Positions 26,966 to 31,457 of a DNA stretch of 34,927 nucleotides are shown in pieces. The stretch is from the IMG/VR virus record IMGVR_UViG_3300035564_000072, positions 1 through 34,927 of that record, one strand, 5' to 3'. This DNA comes from a virus. The position numbers and the translations under genes are program-made. The notes under the pieces are model-generated. The model did no database searches. It worked only from the letters and a program-made list of their open reading frames with translations, and was not told where the DNA came from. The first letter of the stretch is position 1. Each line of letters starts with the position of its first letter.

Positions 26966-27106
26966 TTAGAAATCCAAGAGATATTGATCGCTCTGCGAAA
27001 CGCTCCCCCCCTGCCCCCCGCTCACTCCCATTAGTTCCCCTAATTTATTCTGTGATAAATTCCGCTCCTTCAAGACGCGGCTAACGATCTGTTCGATGGT
27101 TTCCAT
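26966..27106 (-). CDS. Short XRE-like HTH ORF with G-tract
   Basis: 46 residues, starting METIEQIVSRVLKERNLSQN and KLGELMGVS, which is the first half of an XRE-type HTH. It then runs into a Gly/Gln stretch encoded by G6-C-A-G7 (27000-27016) and ends at 26966. A shift of one base after the G-tract gives a continuation ERFAERSISLGF, so the G-tract may turn a longer repressor on or off, or the gene is decayed. No strong ribosome site. Lies divergent from the early HTH gene, where a repressor is expected. Confidence 0.4.
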   Translation of the reverse strand: METIEQIVSRVLKERNLSQNKLGELMGVSGGQGGSVSQSDQYLLDF

Positions 27107-27161: not shown

Positions 27162-27190
27162 TTGACAAATTAGCTAAGTGGTATTATTAT
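27162..27190 (+). promoter_or_regulatory. Early rightward promoter
   Basis: TTGACA (27162-27167), 17-base spacer, TATTAT (27185-27190), a near-consensus sigma-70 promoter for the HTH gene at 27235 and the early operon. Confidence 0.85.
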
Positions 27191-28024: not shown

Positions 28025-28453
28025 ATGCTTCCCGCCAATTTTCCCCCATATCCCCCCGTCACATTGATCGCCCTGATGTTCGCCGTCTCGTTCGTTTTCG
28101 GCCTGGGCTACAACTGGTTTTTCCGGTGGGCGAAGATCCCGGTCGAATGGGCGGTGGTGATCGGAACGATGGCGACGATTGCAATTCTCTACGGCTTCTT
28201 CTGGTCGAACGAACTCCGGGGCGAGCAGTGGGTGCTCCTGATGCTCATCGCCTTTGCCGGCTCCGGCTCCCCGATGGCGATCGGCACGATCAAGGTCCGC
28301 AATGCCAGCCATAAGCGCAAGACGATCACGGGCGCAGCCGCCCGGATGCGGGATGAAGCGGTCATGGACCTGACCGTCCTGGCCGGGAAGATCGACAAAG
28401 CTGAGCACGTCCGGAATTTGTACCAGATCATCGGAACGTTGAACGCACTTTAG
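28025..28453 (+). CDS. Membrane protein, 142 aa
   Basis: Three hydrophobic segments at about 11-32, 40-60 and 68-84 (VTLIALMFAVSFVFGLGYNW first), then a helical basic region (ASHKRKTITGAAARMRDEAV) and a soluble end. Function unknown. Could act in superinfection exclusion, as early phage membrane proteins do, but this is only context. Its stop opens the long non-coding stretch. Confidence 0.55.
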   Translation: MLPANFPPYPPVTLIALMFAVSFVFGLGYNWFFRWAKIPVEWAVVIGTMATIAILYGFFWSNELRGEQWVLLMLIAFAGSGSPMAIGTIKVRNASHKRKTITGAAARMRDEAVMDLTVLAGKIDKAEHVRNLYQIIGTLNAL

Positions 28454-28459
28454 AACCTT

Positions 28460-29070
28460 ACAACTTGATTCCCTTATTGTGGGCGTGTAATTCCGAGGCG
28501 GAGTGTCGGGACTTGACCAGCGAGAAGCCCCCTAGACAGACTGAAGCGCTGGACCGGATCGCCCCTAATTGTACAAGCCTGCGCCGTGTCGAGCATAACC
28601 ATTCGGACGAATACCCAGGTGCTCACTGGAACCGAGCGGCGCAGGCACCCTAAGCAATTCGCGGACCACAAGCATCGGATCGGAAATGTGTGTCGTCCGC
28701 TGATTGTGACCGGGCTAAATCTACGGCAGGAGTTGTCCTCTCCAAGCCTCTGGCCCGGTCAAGTCGAATGAGTCTGGTTGCCCCCCTCAACCAGGTCAGA
28801 TTATCGGTAGCGCCCGGGTGGGTTACCCCTCCTTTCCCGCCCGGGCCCCTGGGGAAGCCAGCAACTTGGGAAGAGTTGCCGAAAGTCCAGATAACCAATT
28901 CCTGCCGAACGGAACGTTCCGTCTGAGCATCGGCAAACAGTGAGGCCCTGGGACGTAGGAAAAGACGCCAACGAAACCGTACCGAAACGCAGCGCAGTTG
29001 CGTGGCAGCCGGAGAGACGGCATTCTTTCTCCTCTCGAAGCCCCCGGTCGGTTCAGGCCGGGGGCGAAGG
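28460..29070 (+). ncRNA. Large structured RNA candidate
   Basis: About 600 bases without a convincing gene but with many consecutive stem-loops: 28517-22/28547-52; 28577-86/28637-46 (10 bp, GCCTGCGCCG, with inner GAGCA/TGCTC and ATTC/GAAT); 28661-66/28695-700; 28708-15/28753-60 (GACCGGGC); 28774-80/28788-94; 28812-18/28840-46 (GCCCGGG); 28849-52/28858-61; 28861-66/28874-79; 28903-08/28930-35 with inner ACGGAA/TTCCGT; 28987-91/28999-29003; 29041-47/29058-64. Linkers contain GGAA and GAAA. Size and phage location recall GOLLD and ROOL RNAs, but I cannot match their consensus from memory. Strand inferred from flanking genes. Confidence 0.5.
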
Positions 29071-29078
29071 AAAACGAA

Positions 29079-29150
29079 ATGATCGAAGCACTTGCCCTAC
29101 TCATCATGTTTGGCCTGATCTTGATCGCAATCAAGATACTTGGCCTGTAA
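29079..29150 (+). CDS. 23-residue hydrophobic peptide
   Basis: ATG 29079 with GAAGGAAAAC before it, TAA at 29148-29150. Sequence: MIEALALLIMFGLI followed by LIAIKILGL, one membrane helix with a single Lys near the end. It resembles type I toxin or small membrane peptides. It is placed between the structured RNA and a terminator. Short length leaves chance possible. Confidence 0.4.
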   Translation: MIEALALLIMFGLILIAIKILGL

Positions 29151-29179
29151 AACGCAAAGGCCCCGCCGATGCGGGACCT

Positions 29180-29218
29180 GGCTGAGATTACTTGGAAGGC
29201 AGTCTCAGCCCCCATTTT
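29180..29218 (+). terminator. Terminator after the RNA/peptide unit
   Basis: GGCTGAGA (29180-29187) pairs with TCTCAGCC (29203-29210), followed by CCCATTTT. A small stem CCCGC/GCGGG lies just before it. It would end the transcript carrying the structured RNA. Confidence 0.65.
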
Positions 29219-29236
29219 AGCACAAATTGGAGGCTT

Positions 29237-29770
29237 ATGGACACTCAAAAAACTGTAACACGAATTGATCTCGAACGCTGCGGCTCCGGAATTTTCCTGC
29301 GCCAATGGTTCGAAGGCTGGCACGATGACGGCTCAACTCCCCCCGACAGCGACGAATATATCCCGGACCAGACGGTCTCGGCAGCGCTTGCAAAATACGA
29401 GCGCCAGGGATTTACCTGCGAGATGGCCAATGGTCAACTCGGTCGGGCGCTCCGGGGAGAGATAACCCGGATCGATTTCATCCAACTGGCCGATGGCTGG
29501 CATATCCGCAAATATCCCTATGGCTGGACCGCCAAGACGCACCCGATCTCGGAAACGATCTGCCCTACCGCCGAAGACGGAATTCTCTGGTGCGAAGCCC
29601 ATCGCTGGACGGTACGAAGATGGCCGGGAGGCGCACGAGCATTCAAGGGCCAGCCCCGCCCCATCCATGACAAGGCCACCATCCAGTATTTGCGCCGGCA
29701 GGTCGAGAACAATCGACGCGACGGCAAAGCCGATCCCCGCCACAACTACGATCTCGCATTCGACTTTTAG
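29237..29770 (+). CDS. Hypothetical protein, 177 aa
   Basis: ATG 29237 after GGAGG. Begins MDTQKTVTRIDLERCGSGIF; Trp-rich (FEGWHDDG, DGWHIRKYPYGWTAKTHP, HRWTVRRWPGG) with a basic C-terminus (RRQVENNRRDGKADPRHNYD). Soluble, possibly nucleic-acid binding. No family recognised. The longer frame from 29192 includes the terminator region. Confidence 0.5.
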   Translation: MDTQKTVTRIDLERCGSGIFLRQWFEGWHDDGSTPPDSDEYIPDQTVSAALAKYERQGFTCEMANGQLGRALRGEITRIDFIQLADGWHIRKYPYGWTAKTHPISETICPTAEDGILWCEAHRWTVRRWPGGARAFKGQPRPIHDKATIQYLRRQVENNRRDGKADPRHNYDLAFDF

Positions 29771-29778
29771 GTGATCCC

Positions 29779-30384
29779 ATGAACAACGAACAAGAACTTC
29801 TTACCCAACTGACCCGCATCGCCGACGCCCTAGAGCGCCTGGCTTCCAACGACAAAGCGGTTTCGCCGAACATCGTGCGACCGATCGAAGAATTTCGCTC
29901 TTTCGACTGGGCCGGCCATCAGATCGAAGTGGTCAAGAGCGACAACGACGGCCCGACCCACGTGTCCTACAACGGCACGGTTTTTACCCGCCGCAGCCCG
30001 GTCAACAAATTCGAGCCGGCCATCTGGTACAGCGCTTCAGCCGGCAAGGACGAAGACGGGAACGTCCTGTATATCAAGTTGATCACCTTCCGGACCATTG
30101 GCGACGCCGATCCATTGCCGCCCAAGGCGATTGGCAAGACCAATTCCGGATCCGCTCCAAGACCTGCTCAGCCTGCCCCGAAATCTGCCACTCCCCAAAC
30201 TCCCGCCGCTTTGAAATTCAGCGACCCCAAGATCGTCGTGATTTTCGCCAAGGAATGGGGCGGCACGGCTTCCGAAGCGGCCCAAACCTTATTCGCCCTG
30301 CATAAAGACGGACGATTGCCCGACACACTGAGCGAAGCCCAGGCTCGGGAGTTCGCCCAGGGATTTAAGGAGAAAATAGCATGA
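29779..30384 (+). CDS. Hypothetical early protein, possible DNA-binding accessory
   Basis: 201 residues. Short coiled coil (ELLTQLTRIADALERLAS), a beta-rich middle (WAGHQIEVVKSDNDGPTHVS, then NGTVFTRRSPVNKFEPAIWY), a Pro/Ala/Gln linker (APRPAQPAPKSATPQTP) and a helical end. This is a layout seen in some phage replication accessory proteins, but I do not recognise the family. Its stop overlaps the start of the repeat protein (ATGA). Confidence 0.4.
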   Translation: MNNEQELLTQLTRIADALERLASNDKAVSPNIVRPIEEFRSFDWAGHQIEVVKSDNDGPTHVSYNGTVFTRRSPVNKFEPAIWYSASAGKDEDGNVLYIKLITFRTIGDADPLPPKAIGKTNSGSAPRPAQPAPKSATPQTPAALKFSDPKIVVIFAKEWGGTASEAAQTLFALHKDGRLPDTLSEAQAREFAQGFKEKIA

Positions 30385-31457
30385 CTAAAATAATCGTTAC
30401 CTCTCAAAAAGAATTTGACGACGCCCTCCGGGCGGAAGCCGACGAGATTGAGATCCGTGGAGATTTCTCGGGCATTATCAAATATTCCCCATACCTTTAT
30501 GTCGCGGAGAACAGCCAGCCGCACGTCGAGGCCAGGGAGAACAGCCAGCCGCACGTCGTGGCCAGGGAGAACAGCCAGCCGCACGTCGTGGCCTGGGAGA
30601 ACAGCCAGCCGCACGTCGAGGCCAGGGAGAACAGCCAGCCGCACGTCGTGGCCTGGGAGAACAGCCAGCCGCACGTCGTGGCCTGGGCGAACAGCCAGCC
30701 GCACGTCGTGGCCTGGGAGAACAGCCAGCCGCACGTCGAGGCCAGGGCGAACAGCCAGCCGCACGTCGAGGCCTGGGAGAACAGCCAGCCGCACGTCGTG
30801 GCCTGGGAGAACAGCCAGCCGCACGTCGAGGCCTGGGCGAACAGCCAGCCGCACGTCGTGGCCTGGGAGAACAGCCAGCCGCACGTCGAGGCCAGGGCGA
30901 ACAGCCAGCCGCACGTCGTGGCCTGGGAGAACAGCCAGCCGCACGTCGAGGCCAGGGGCAATATCATGTTACGCCTTACAGGGAAAATTTCCGCAATCGC
31001 CACTGACACCTGCATGGTCTATTTGCACAACGGAGCGGTCTGTAAAGGCGGCCTACAGTCGATCGCCAAGCCGATCATAACCGCATCGGACTGGTTGGAG
31101 TTCTATGGCGTCCCAATTAAACGCGGAATTGCCATACTCTACAAAGCAGTTGACGAGGATTTCAGTACCGACAGAGCCCGCGCAAGGAATATTTCGTACA
31201 AGCCCGGTGATACACCGGCCGCTCCAGATTGGGACCCGATTCCTGAATGCGGCGGTGGATTGCACTTCTGCCCGGAGCCGGGCGCTACCCTGCAATTCAA
31301 CAGCGATCCAAAACATTTCGTTGCCTGCCCAGTGAAGGTTTCCGAGATCGTCGTCCATGAAAACGCAGAGTATCCGACGAAGGTCAAGGCTCCCCGGGTT
31401 TACAAACCATGCTACGAAGTGGACCGATATGGCAACCCAATCGAGGCGAAGAAATGA
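30381..31457 (+). CDS. Decapeptide-repeat beta-solenoid protein with DUF7666-like end
   Basis: 358 residues. Residues 43-192 are 15 exact-length decads [E/A]-N-S-Q-P-H-V-[E/V]-A-[R/W], where only three positions vary and each in a two-way manner. Small and hydrophobic residues (S, V, A) would face inward in a parallel beta-solenoid. A linker follows, then from residue about 253 a domain (LYKAVDEDF, then ECGGGLHFCPEPGATLQF, ACPVKVSEIVV) like DUF7666, found in phage proteins. The stop overlaps the winged-helix gene at 31454, as in the 871/1590 pair. Function unknown. Confidence 0.65.
   Translation: MTKIIVTSQKEFDDALRAEADEIEIRGDFSGIIKYSPYLYVAENSQPHVEARENSQPHVVARENSQPHVVAWENSQPHVEARENSQPHVVAWENSQPHVVAWANSQPHVVAWENSQPHVEARANSQPHVEAWENSQPHVVAWENSQPHVEAWANSQPHVVAWENSQPHVEARANSQPHVVAWENSQPHVEARGNIMLRLTGKISAIATDTCMVYLHNGAVCKGGLQSIAKPIITASDWLEFYGVPIKRGIAILYKAVDEDFSTDRARARNISYKPGDTPAAPDWDPIPECGGGLHFCPEPGATLQFNSDPKHFVACPVKVSEIVVHENAEYPTKVKAPRVYKPCYEVDRYGNPIEAKK
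30507..30956 (+). repeat. 30-base tandem repeat, 15 units
   Basis: Unit GAGAACAGCCAGCCGCACGT plus CGAGGCCAGG, no spacers. Changes only at GAG/GCG, GAG/GTG and AGG/TGG, all of them non-synonymous; no synonymous change is seen across the array. It keeps several shadow frames open on both strands. Confidence 0.97.

Follow-up and report, generated by a model that had tools for sequence, protein, structure and literature searches.

A recurrent hairpin with a CCCCCCU loop in a structured non-coding region of an uncultured phage genome

The IMG/VR virus record IMGVR_UViG_3300035564_000072 (34,927 nucleotides, all of which were analysed and are referred to here as the window) contains a stretch of some 600 nucleotides in which no gene is apparent, and this raises the question of whether it encodes a functional RNA and, if so, of what kind. 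The original prediction was that the stretch is packed with stem-loops and is possibly a new large phage RNA, similar in size and setting to GOLLD and ROOL. The observation is partly confirmed and the interpretation is partly supported by the analyses described here, which draw attention to one hairpin near the middle of the region.

Genome context, coding potential and folding

The open reading frames of this 34.9-kb record place the structural genes leftwards (from about 26.9 down to 6.7 kb), while the remainder run rightwards from about 27.2 kb; the region lies about 1.3 kb into the rightward block (Table 1). We infer that this is the early block because there is a repressor-like helix-turn-helix ORF at its start and it has a replication-type position. 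The promoter scan that listed the site at 27162 gave three matches, compared with 1.8 expected by chance in the scanned stretch. Several other genes have recognizable features. One example is the leftward ORF at 26966–27106, which has a repressor-like helix-turn-helix start, is only 46 codons long and is perhaps truncated. Others are a gene product with a DdrB-like domain (29779–30384; Pfam PF12747) and repeat proteins at 871–1593 and 30381–31457 with 10-residue units, one of which is ENSQPHVVAW. A pattern scan of viral_contigs for the protein encoded at 28025–28453 gave no match. The tiny ORF at 29079–29150 resembles small membrane toxins, and could be a toxin gene preceded by a long, structured leader.

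Table 1. Features in and near the non-coding region (positions in the window)
Feature	Coordinates	Strand	Remarks
Promoter-like site TTGACA-17-TATTAT	27162..27190	+	Nearest found upstream, ahead of the rightward early genes; consensus match only
142-aa hydrophobic protein, no family	28025..28453	+	ORF list; family and pattern searches
Non-coding structured region	28454..29078	+	No coding signal; z -2.4; no Rfam match
Local hairpin GCGGAC/GUCCGC	28661..28700	+	Pair probability 1.0; no homologue
10-bp hairpin GACCGGGCUA/UGGCCCGGUC, directly 5′ of the C6U hairpin	28708..28760	+	Pair probability 0.96; within 28705–28850
C6U hairpin UGA-g-UCUGGUUG / loop CCCCCCU (28781–28787) / CAACCAGG-UCA	28769..28798	+	Recurrent, covarying; 8-bp stem pair probability 0.96
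11-bp GC-rich hairpin GCCCGGGUGGG/CCCGCCCGGGC, directly 3′ of the C6U hairpin	28812..28846	+	Pair probability 1.0
10-bp GC-rich hairpin preceding the tiny ORF's ribosome-binding site	29040..29065	+	Pair probability 0.99
Tiny ORF MIEALALLIMFGLILIAIKILGL, 23 aa, hydrophobic	29079..29150	+	ORF list
Two more hairpins ahead of the next gene	29158..29210	+	Folding
177-aa protein	29237..29770	+	Only one relative found, in G019 (viral_contigs; 45% identity)

The region does lie, as proposed, between the stop codon of the 142-aa hydrophobic ORF and the 23-aa ORF, and the claimed absence of coding also holds, as no frame of 28454–29078 scores as coding with either an in-sample codon model or a second model trained on ten other genes of the window. 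The GC content by codon phase is flat (0.58/0.59/0.59) compared to that in the genes (0.59/0.43/0.72). The longest run without coding signal anywhere in the window spans 421 bases (120-nt windows centred on 28411–28831), the runner-up being 241 bases, and there is an additional such run at 28901–29061. There is no Rfam match to the region at gathering level, and a permissive search (E up to 10) returned background only. It is the permissive searches that carry the no-match claim, because the gathering mode missed a tRNA-Met in a related phage locus (L071:5165–5236) that scores 54.4 bits against a cut-off of 29 in permissive mode and is also found by ARAGORN. No tRNA or tmRNA signature is present in the window, in agreement with the original prediction, and the tmRNA, RNase P and group I and II intron covariance models are unmatched. 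The region is non-coding and structured, and matched no known class.

Folding of the 625 nt is more stable than that of dinucleotide shuffles on the plus strand (z -2.4) but not on the minus strand (z -0.7; 100 shuffles each), and in a separate run none of 20 shuffles was as low. The excess is moderate and unevenly distributed. On the plus strand the z values are +0.25 for 28454–28753, -1.5 for 28754–29078, -2.5 for 28570–28659 and -2.0 for 28690–28989, and the strongest piece is 28705–28850 (z -4.03, 0/200 shuffles), an interval picked after the helices had been seen. Such an excess is not unique in the genome, as three of 29 spaced 625-nt control windows on the same strand have z values of -2.45 or lower (28801, which overlaps the region, -4.0; 16701, -3.7; and 26601, -2.45). 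With 120-nt windows the region is unexceptional (best z -2.3). The lowest of all 349 such windows on the plus strand is just downstream at 29101–29220 (z -6.4), and holds a hairpin inside the tiny ORF together with the two hairpins ahead of gene 29237.

The helices are dense, as noted originally: sixteen of at least 4 bp have a mean pair probability above 0.5 inside 28454–29078, this being a raw count. Five exceed 0.9 (28661/28700, 28708/28760, 28773/28795, 28812/28846 and 29040/29065). Long-range inverted repeats of 11–15 nt are near chance by a hand estimate. Positions 28723 and 29017 hold the two copies of a direct repeat of 44 nt (70% identity). The terminator that was thought to follow the region does not stand up, since the hairpin at 29040–29065 is followed by GAAGGAAAACGAAATG, which is a ribosome-binding site without a U tract, and the terminator scan listed no plus-strand terminator there.

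The uneven folding bears on a simple alternative, in which everything outside the C6U hairpin is an ordinary early-operon spacer, perhaps a decayed gene, with helices of the sort expected in GC-rich sequence. The unremarkable first 300 nt, the three control windows that fold as well or better, the ordinary 120-nt windows and the lack of a homologue all fit with this. However, the strand difference and the folding of the core around the hairpin do not, and this is the longest non-coding stretch in the window, where 600 nt of spacer would be unusual for a phage. We regard it as a credible, if unlikely, account of the flanking sequence.

The question of homologues has a divided answer: none was found for the whole 600 nt, and a single hairpin has relatives. 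Comparison by blastn with GenBank phages and plasmids, 59 terminase-relative loci and 21 related records gave nothing beyond this hairpin, and a second query against phages produced a sole match with an E-value of 8.0, inside a gene. Only three of the 21 related records gave any match at E values up to 10, the best being 17 identical nucleotides (28776–28792) that occur twice in record G019 (E 0.0086). As no whole-region homologue was found, 28454–29078 is not established as one large RNA.

Distribution and covariation of the C6U hairpin

The shared hairpin has a CCCCCCU loop closed by UUG/CAA, and fits a motif that we refer to as C6U, in which CCCCCCU is closed by UG/CA on a stem. Three scans of viral_contigs (IMG/VR) were used to survey it, and we sorted the matches by ORF length, promoter and stem. 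The first (GGTTGCCCCCCTCAACC) gave ten stretches, of which six are non-coding (L072, L073, L074, L079, L080 and L081) and four are in ORFs. The second (TTGCCCCCCTCAA, 3′ of TATWWT) gave 29, with 17 in the class, ten in long ORFs and two unclear (L087 and L097), and the third (ACTTGCCCCCCTCAAGC) gave 14, with 13 in the class and one in an ORF. After merging three duplicate pairs the motif is present in 21 contigs besides the window, 22 in all, some of which are kin (e.g. L117–L119 are 81–96% alike over stretches). Two copies are in tandem in G034, G040, G041 and G043, and G032 and G039 have two copies apart. We note that several of the contigs (G032, G036, G039, G041 and G043) are from IMG/VR sample 3300044712, as is G006, one of the terminase relatives of the window. 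The conservation of the loop is in part by construction, since 13 inner nucleotides were set by the scan patterns; the second pattern also included the -10 box, whereas none included the -35 box. The free evidence for the motif therefore comes from the outer stem, the terminators and the -35 box.

With the hairpin model, the motif was absent from the nine viral records with a related terminase that were searched (G002, G006, G007, G008, G010, G012, G014, G017 and G018), from the two terminase-relative genomes G045 and G046, and from the further terminase-relative loci L030 and L033, which were included in a model search covering 37 sources; nor is it in L062 and L063, which contain relatives of 29779–30384. 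Among 81 loci the exact 11-nt core occurs only in L001, the G019 loci and the matches of the GGTTGCCCCCCTCAACC scan. A match in phiBT1 was dropped, as it is partial and the loop differs. No publication describing this hairpin was found in the literature searched, most subscription papers being outside its scope.

Of all the helices predicted, only the C6U stem (28769–28798) was borne out by covariation, and in its relatives the stem covaries strongly. We assembled two alignments. The first, A1, has 20 hairpins and leaves out L072 (the same as L073), L104 (the same as L085), the ORF matches and the unclear L087 and L097. In A1, 77.9% of cells are paired compared to 58.1% in shuffled alignments, there are 67 double changes compared to 35.2, and the score is 0.495 compared to 0.187, with none of 500 shuffles reaching any of these values; all six slid versions of the alignment are lower for all three. 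The second, A2, has 21 hairpins and leaves out the window, G019 and G042, plus L073, L079, L080 and L081, which were found with a 17-nt pattern derived from the window; 84.0% of its cells are paired and it has 78 double changes versus 30.8 (0/500). These cells are not independent events, given the close kinship of several contigs. One further measure, which counts the pairs showing any double change, is not in excess, being 11 in A1 versus 10.2 (reached by 167/500 shuffles and by one slid version), with the A2 count reached by 253/500 shuffles. The covariance model derived from A2 recovers the hairpin of the window with 24.8 bits (E 7e-4) and, within 111,584 bases, also all four copies in G019 and the copy in G042, with one other weak match (13.8 bits). 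Because the scans fixed the inner 13 nt, this search is to be read as a test of class membership and not as unbiased support for loop conservation.

Copies in long regions and stand-alone copies

The hairpins are found in two types of setting. In the first, which includes the window, they are within long regions without large ORFs. One example is G019, which was reached through its 45% identical relative of the 29237–29770 protein, and has a region of about 1.27 kb (L071:4322–5597) without convincing large ORFs, flanked by a sigma-factor gene and a 246-aa ORF without a family; a search for relatives of the sigma factor returned only itself. The 11-nt core TGCCCCCCTCA occurs four times within 500 nt in this region, each time as a hairpin loop on a different stem, and the region also contains a tRNA-Met (L071:5165–5237), one short ORF and a weak tRNA-like stretch (L071:5416–5511). 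A second example is G042 (L120; L122 is 99.95% identical), in which one C6U hairpin is in a long region lacking large ORFs. Between G042 and the first G019 hairpin, 66 nt align at 74% (E 2e-6), and a weaker match (E 0.014) is between short ORFs adjoining the hairpins. The short ORFs L071:4640–4747 and L120:7284–7406 are similar, and both have TVARK and KNREF. By eye, hairpins whose 7-nt loops resemble T-loops (UUCGAGC, UCCGAAC, UUCGAAC) can be seen close to the C6U hairpins of G019 and G042, at L071:4441–4455, L071:4800–4816 and L120:7001–7014.

The window shares only the hairpin with these two regions. Outside of it, a masked alignment with G019 is marginal (7/200 shuffles as good), and the unmasked alignment is no better than chance (80/200). 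By eye, the last feature of each of the three regions, ahead of the next gene start, is a long hairpin rich in GC. Folding in the long regions is variable: the L120 stretch (z -0.08) and the first G019 hairpin (z 0.01) fold no better than shuffles, and the C6U hairpin is missing from the lowest-energy fold of the L120 stretch, while two other G019 stretches have z values of -2.4 and -4.3.

The long regions are where the proposed kinship with GOLLD and ROOL can be judged. In that reading each region would be a single large RNA of the nanocage-forming kind, with the C6U hairpin as one kissing-loop arm, and the size, the phage setting and the dense hairpins are in its favour. The available part of PMC12286853 describes GOLLD and ROOL as often near tRNA genes, and a tRNA-Met is included in the G019 region, whereas the window has no tRNA. 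However, the permissive searches found no match to the GOLLD, ROOL and OLE covariance models in either the window or the G019 region, so that membership of GOLLD or ROOL is not upheld, there is no homologue of the whole region, and the motif is mostly found alone before a nearby terminator. We consider a single large RNA of this type to be quite improbable.

In the second setting the hairpin stands alone. Twenty of 25 stand-alone copies have a sigma70-like promoter match, TTGA(C/T)-spacer-T(A/G)NNNT, upstream, and the same number have a terminator-like site within 320 nt; the scan for both was crude, was made without a shuffled control, and tandem copies share one terminator. As the promoter-like sites are 5′ and the U-tract terminators are 3′ of the hairpin, the strand with the C6U loop (plus in the window) would be the one transcribed. 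Ten stand-alone RNAs were aligned from hairpin to terminator and each has one C6U hairpin; their consensus has the C6U hairpin at the 5′ end plus the terminator, with 14 of 27 pairs changed on both sides. The RNA folds have z values of -8.2 (L119), -5.5 (L088) and -4.4 (L081). Judged by their sequence, the stand-alone copies look like small-RNA genes, and permissive Rfam searches of five of the loci found nothing at or above gathering score (best IS128, E 1). The window copy has no promoter-like site nearby and does not have the stand-alone form with its own promoter and terminator.

This layout would also suit a signal acting in cis, in which the hairpin in the nascent transcript could modify RNA polymerase or recruit a phage protein so that terminators are passed, with the stand-alone copies being leaders of late or lysis operons. 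Such leaders would resemble the lambda pR′–tR′ leader. The hairpin starts about 10–20 nt from the -10 box in the stand-alone copies, there is a strong terminator between it and the next same-strand genes in L117, L118, L119, L121 and G034, and the window hairpin is placed in the early block. In L088 a terminase gene is downstream on the same strand with small hydrophobic ORFs between, and L096 and L098 are alike by eye. However, in eight of the 25 copies the first ORF called downstream (by crude calls) has the opposite orientation, which would leave little to antiterminate, and in the window some 1.6 kb, including genes, separates the hairpin from the promoter-like site. Compared by description with the available parts of PMC9378689 and PMC6606751, the likeness to HK022 put, lambda boxB and the pR′ leader is that of a phage RNA element soon after a promoter, followed in part of the C6U contigs by a terminator and same-strand genes, whereas some have no downstream same-strand gene. 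A cis signal by analogy with these systems, the main competitor of the trans-pairing reading given below, is plausible, and on balance we doubt it.

A further possibility is that the hairpins act as DNA, either as protein-binding palindromes or as single-stranded replication or recombination sites, and a factor that binds single strands could equally well make use of hairpins that recur with the same loop. The promoter-like site and U-tract terminator flanking most of the stand-alone copies point instead to a transcript, and we think a DNA role very improbable.

A possible trans-acting pairing loop

Either a pairing seed or a protein target would be expected to look like this, with the loop constant and the stem free to change. 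The explanation that we prefer, and give an even chance of being correct, is that the region is part of an early-operon RNA displaying the C6U loop, most likely for pairing in trans with G-rich RNA. Trans pairing is favoured by analogy with 6C RNA and GsrN, for which pairing of C-rich loops with mRNA has been reported. Positions 28454–29078 would then be a folded untranslated stretch of the rightward transcript, presumably made together with the early operon, whose middle displays a module that other uncultured phages appear to encode as stand-alone small RNAs with a promoter, a 5′ C6U hairpin, a variable middle and a terminator. The RNA would most likely be a regulator acting in trans, with the unpaired loop as the seed for pairing to G-rich stretches in other RNAs, its partner probably being RNA rather than protein, and the remaining 590 nt or so may provide a scaffold, take part in processing or comprise several units.

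The resemblance to cellular small RNAs is in the loop. 6C RNA has two hairpins with C-rich loops, whereas there is one C6U hairpin in the window and in each aligned stand-alone RNA, and the C6U RNAs are phage-borne. What could be consulted of PMC9569102 describes 6C RNA as a small non-coding RNA of Actinobacteria whose C-rich hairpin loops, like that of the C6U RNAs in composition, are reported to bind mRNAs. Permissive searches with the 6C covariance model gave no match in the window, the G019 region, two L108 copies and five stand-alone loci; in gathering mode it was also empty for 13 loci including L071, where that mode missed the tRNA. Set side by side by description, GsrN of Caulobacter is similar in having a C-rich 5′ loop, for which the pairing partner is a G-tract within the leader of an mRNA, and differs in being cellular, with BLASTn matches limited to Caulobacteraceae (PMC5869019, as far as its text was available).

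Complements of the loop are rare upstream of called phage genes, as judged from 572 such regions (GAGGGG 0, GGGGGC 0, AGGGGG 3 and GGGGGG 5), and there is no enrichment in this test, for which the reversed-motif control is biased in that some reversed motifs contain GGAG. Because the phages' own upstream regions hold so few, targets, if any, are to be sought in the host. From its sequence the C6U hairpin looks like an unnamed phage small-RNA family, without an Rfam match in the permissive searches made. More tentatively, and with somewhat greater doubt than confidence, we propose that this family is spread over many uncultured phages and is built in one to four copies into long early transcripts (as in the window, G019 and G042) that may regulate multiple RNAs of the host or of rival phages in a polyvalent manner, or else represent a new RNA-only modifier of RNA polymerase.

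Compensatory rewriting of the stem around a constant loop in 22 contigs, not all of them distantly related, argues strongly for a working RNA part, and gives an orphan non-coding stretch a functional element that can be tested. To our knowledge few phage-encoded small RNAs have been described outside model hosts. The covariance model and the promoter and terminator layout provide a handle for finding both hosts and targets. No copy was found among 199 cell genomes in the phylum of G046 or 199 in that of G045, in searches with stricter filters and no known positive genome, a setting in which a blank result is uninformative. For two C6U contigs, the portal and terminase proteins match phages of many hosts at less than 60% identity. 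We also note that L081:4039–4056 has an 18-nt match to a tmRNA 3′ end (E 0.00048, below gathering score), which is perhaps a phage attachment site and as such would point to a host.
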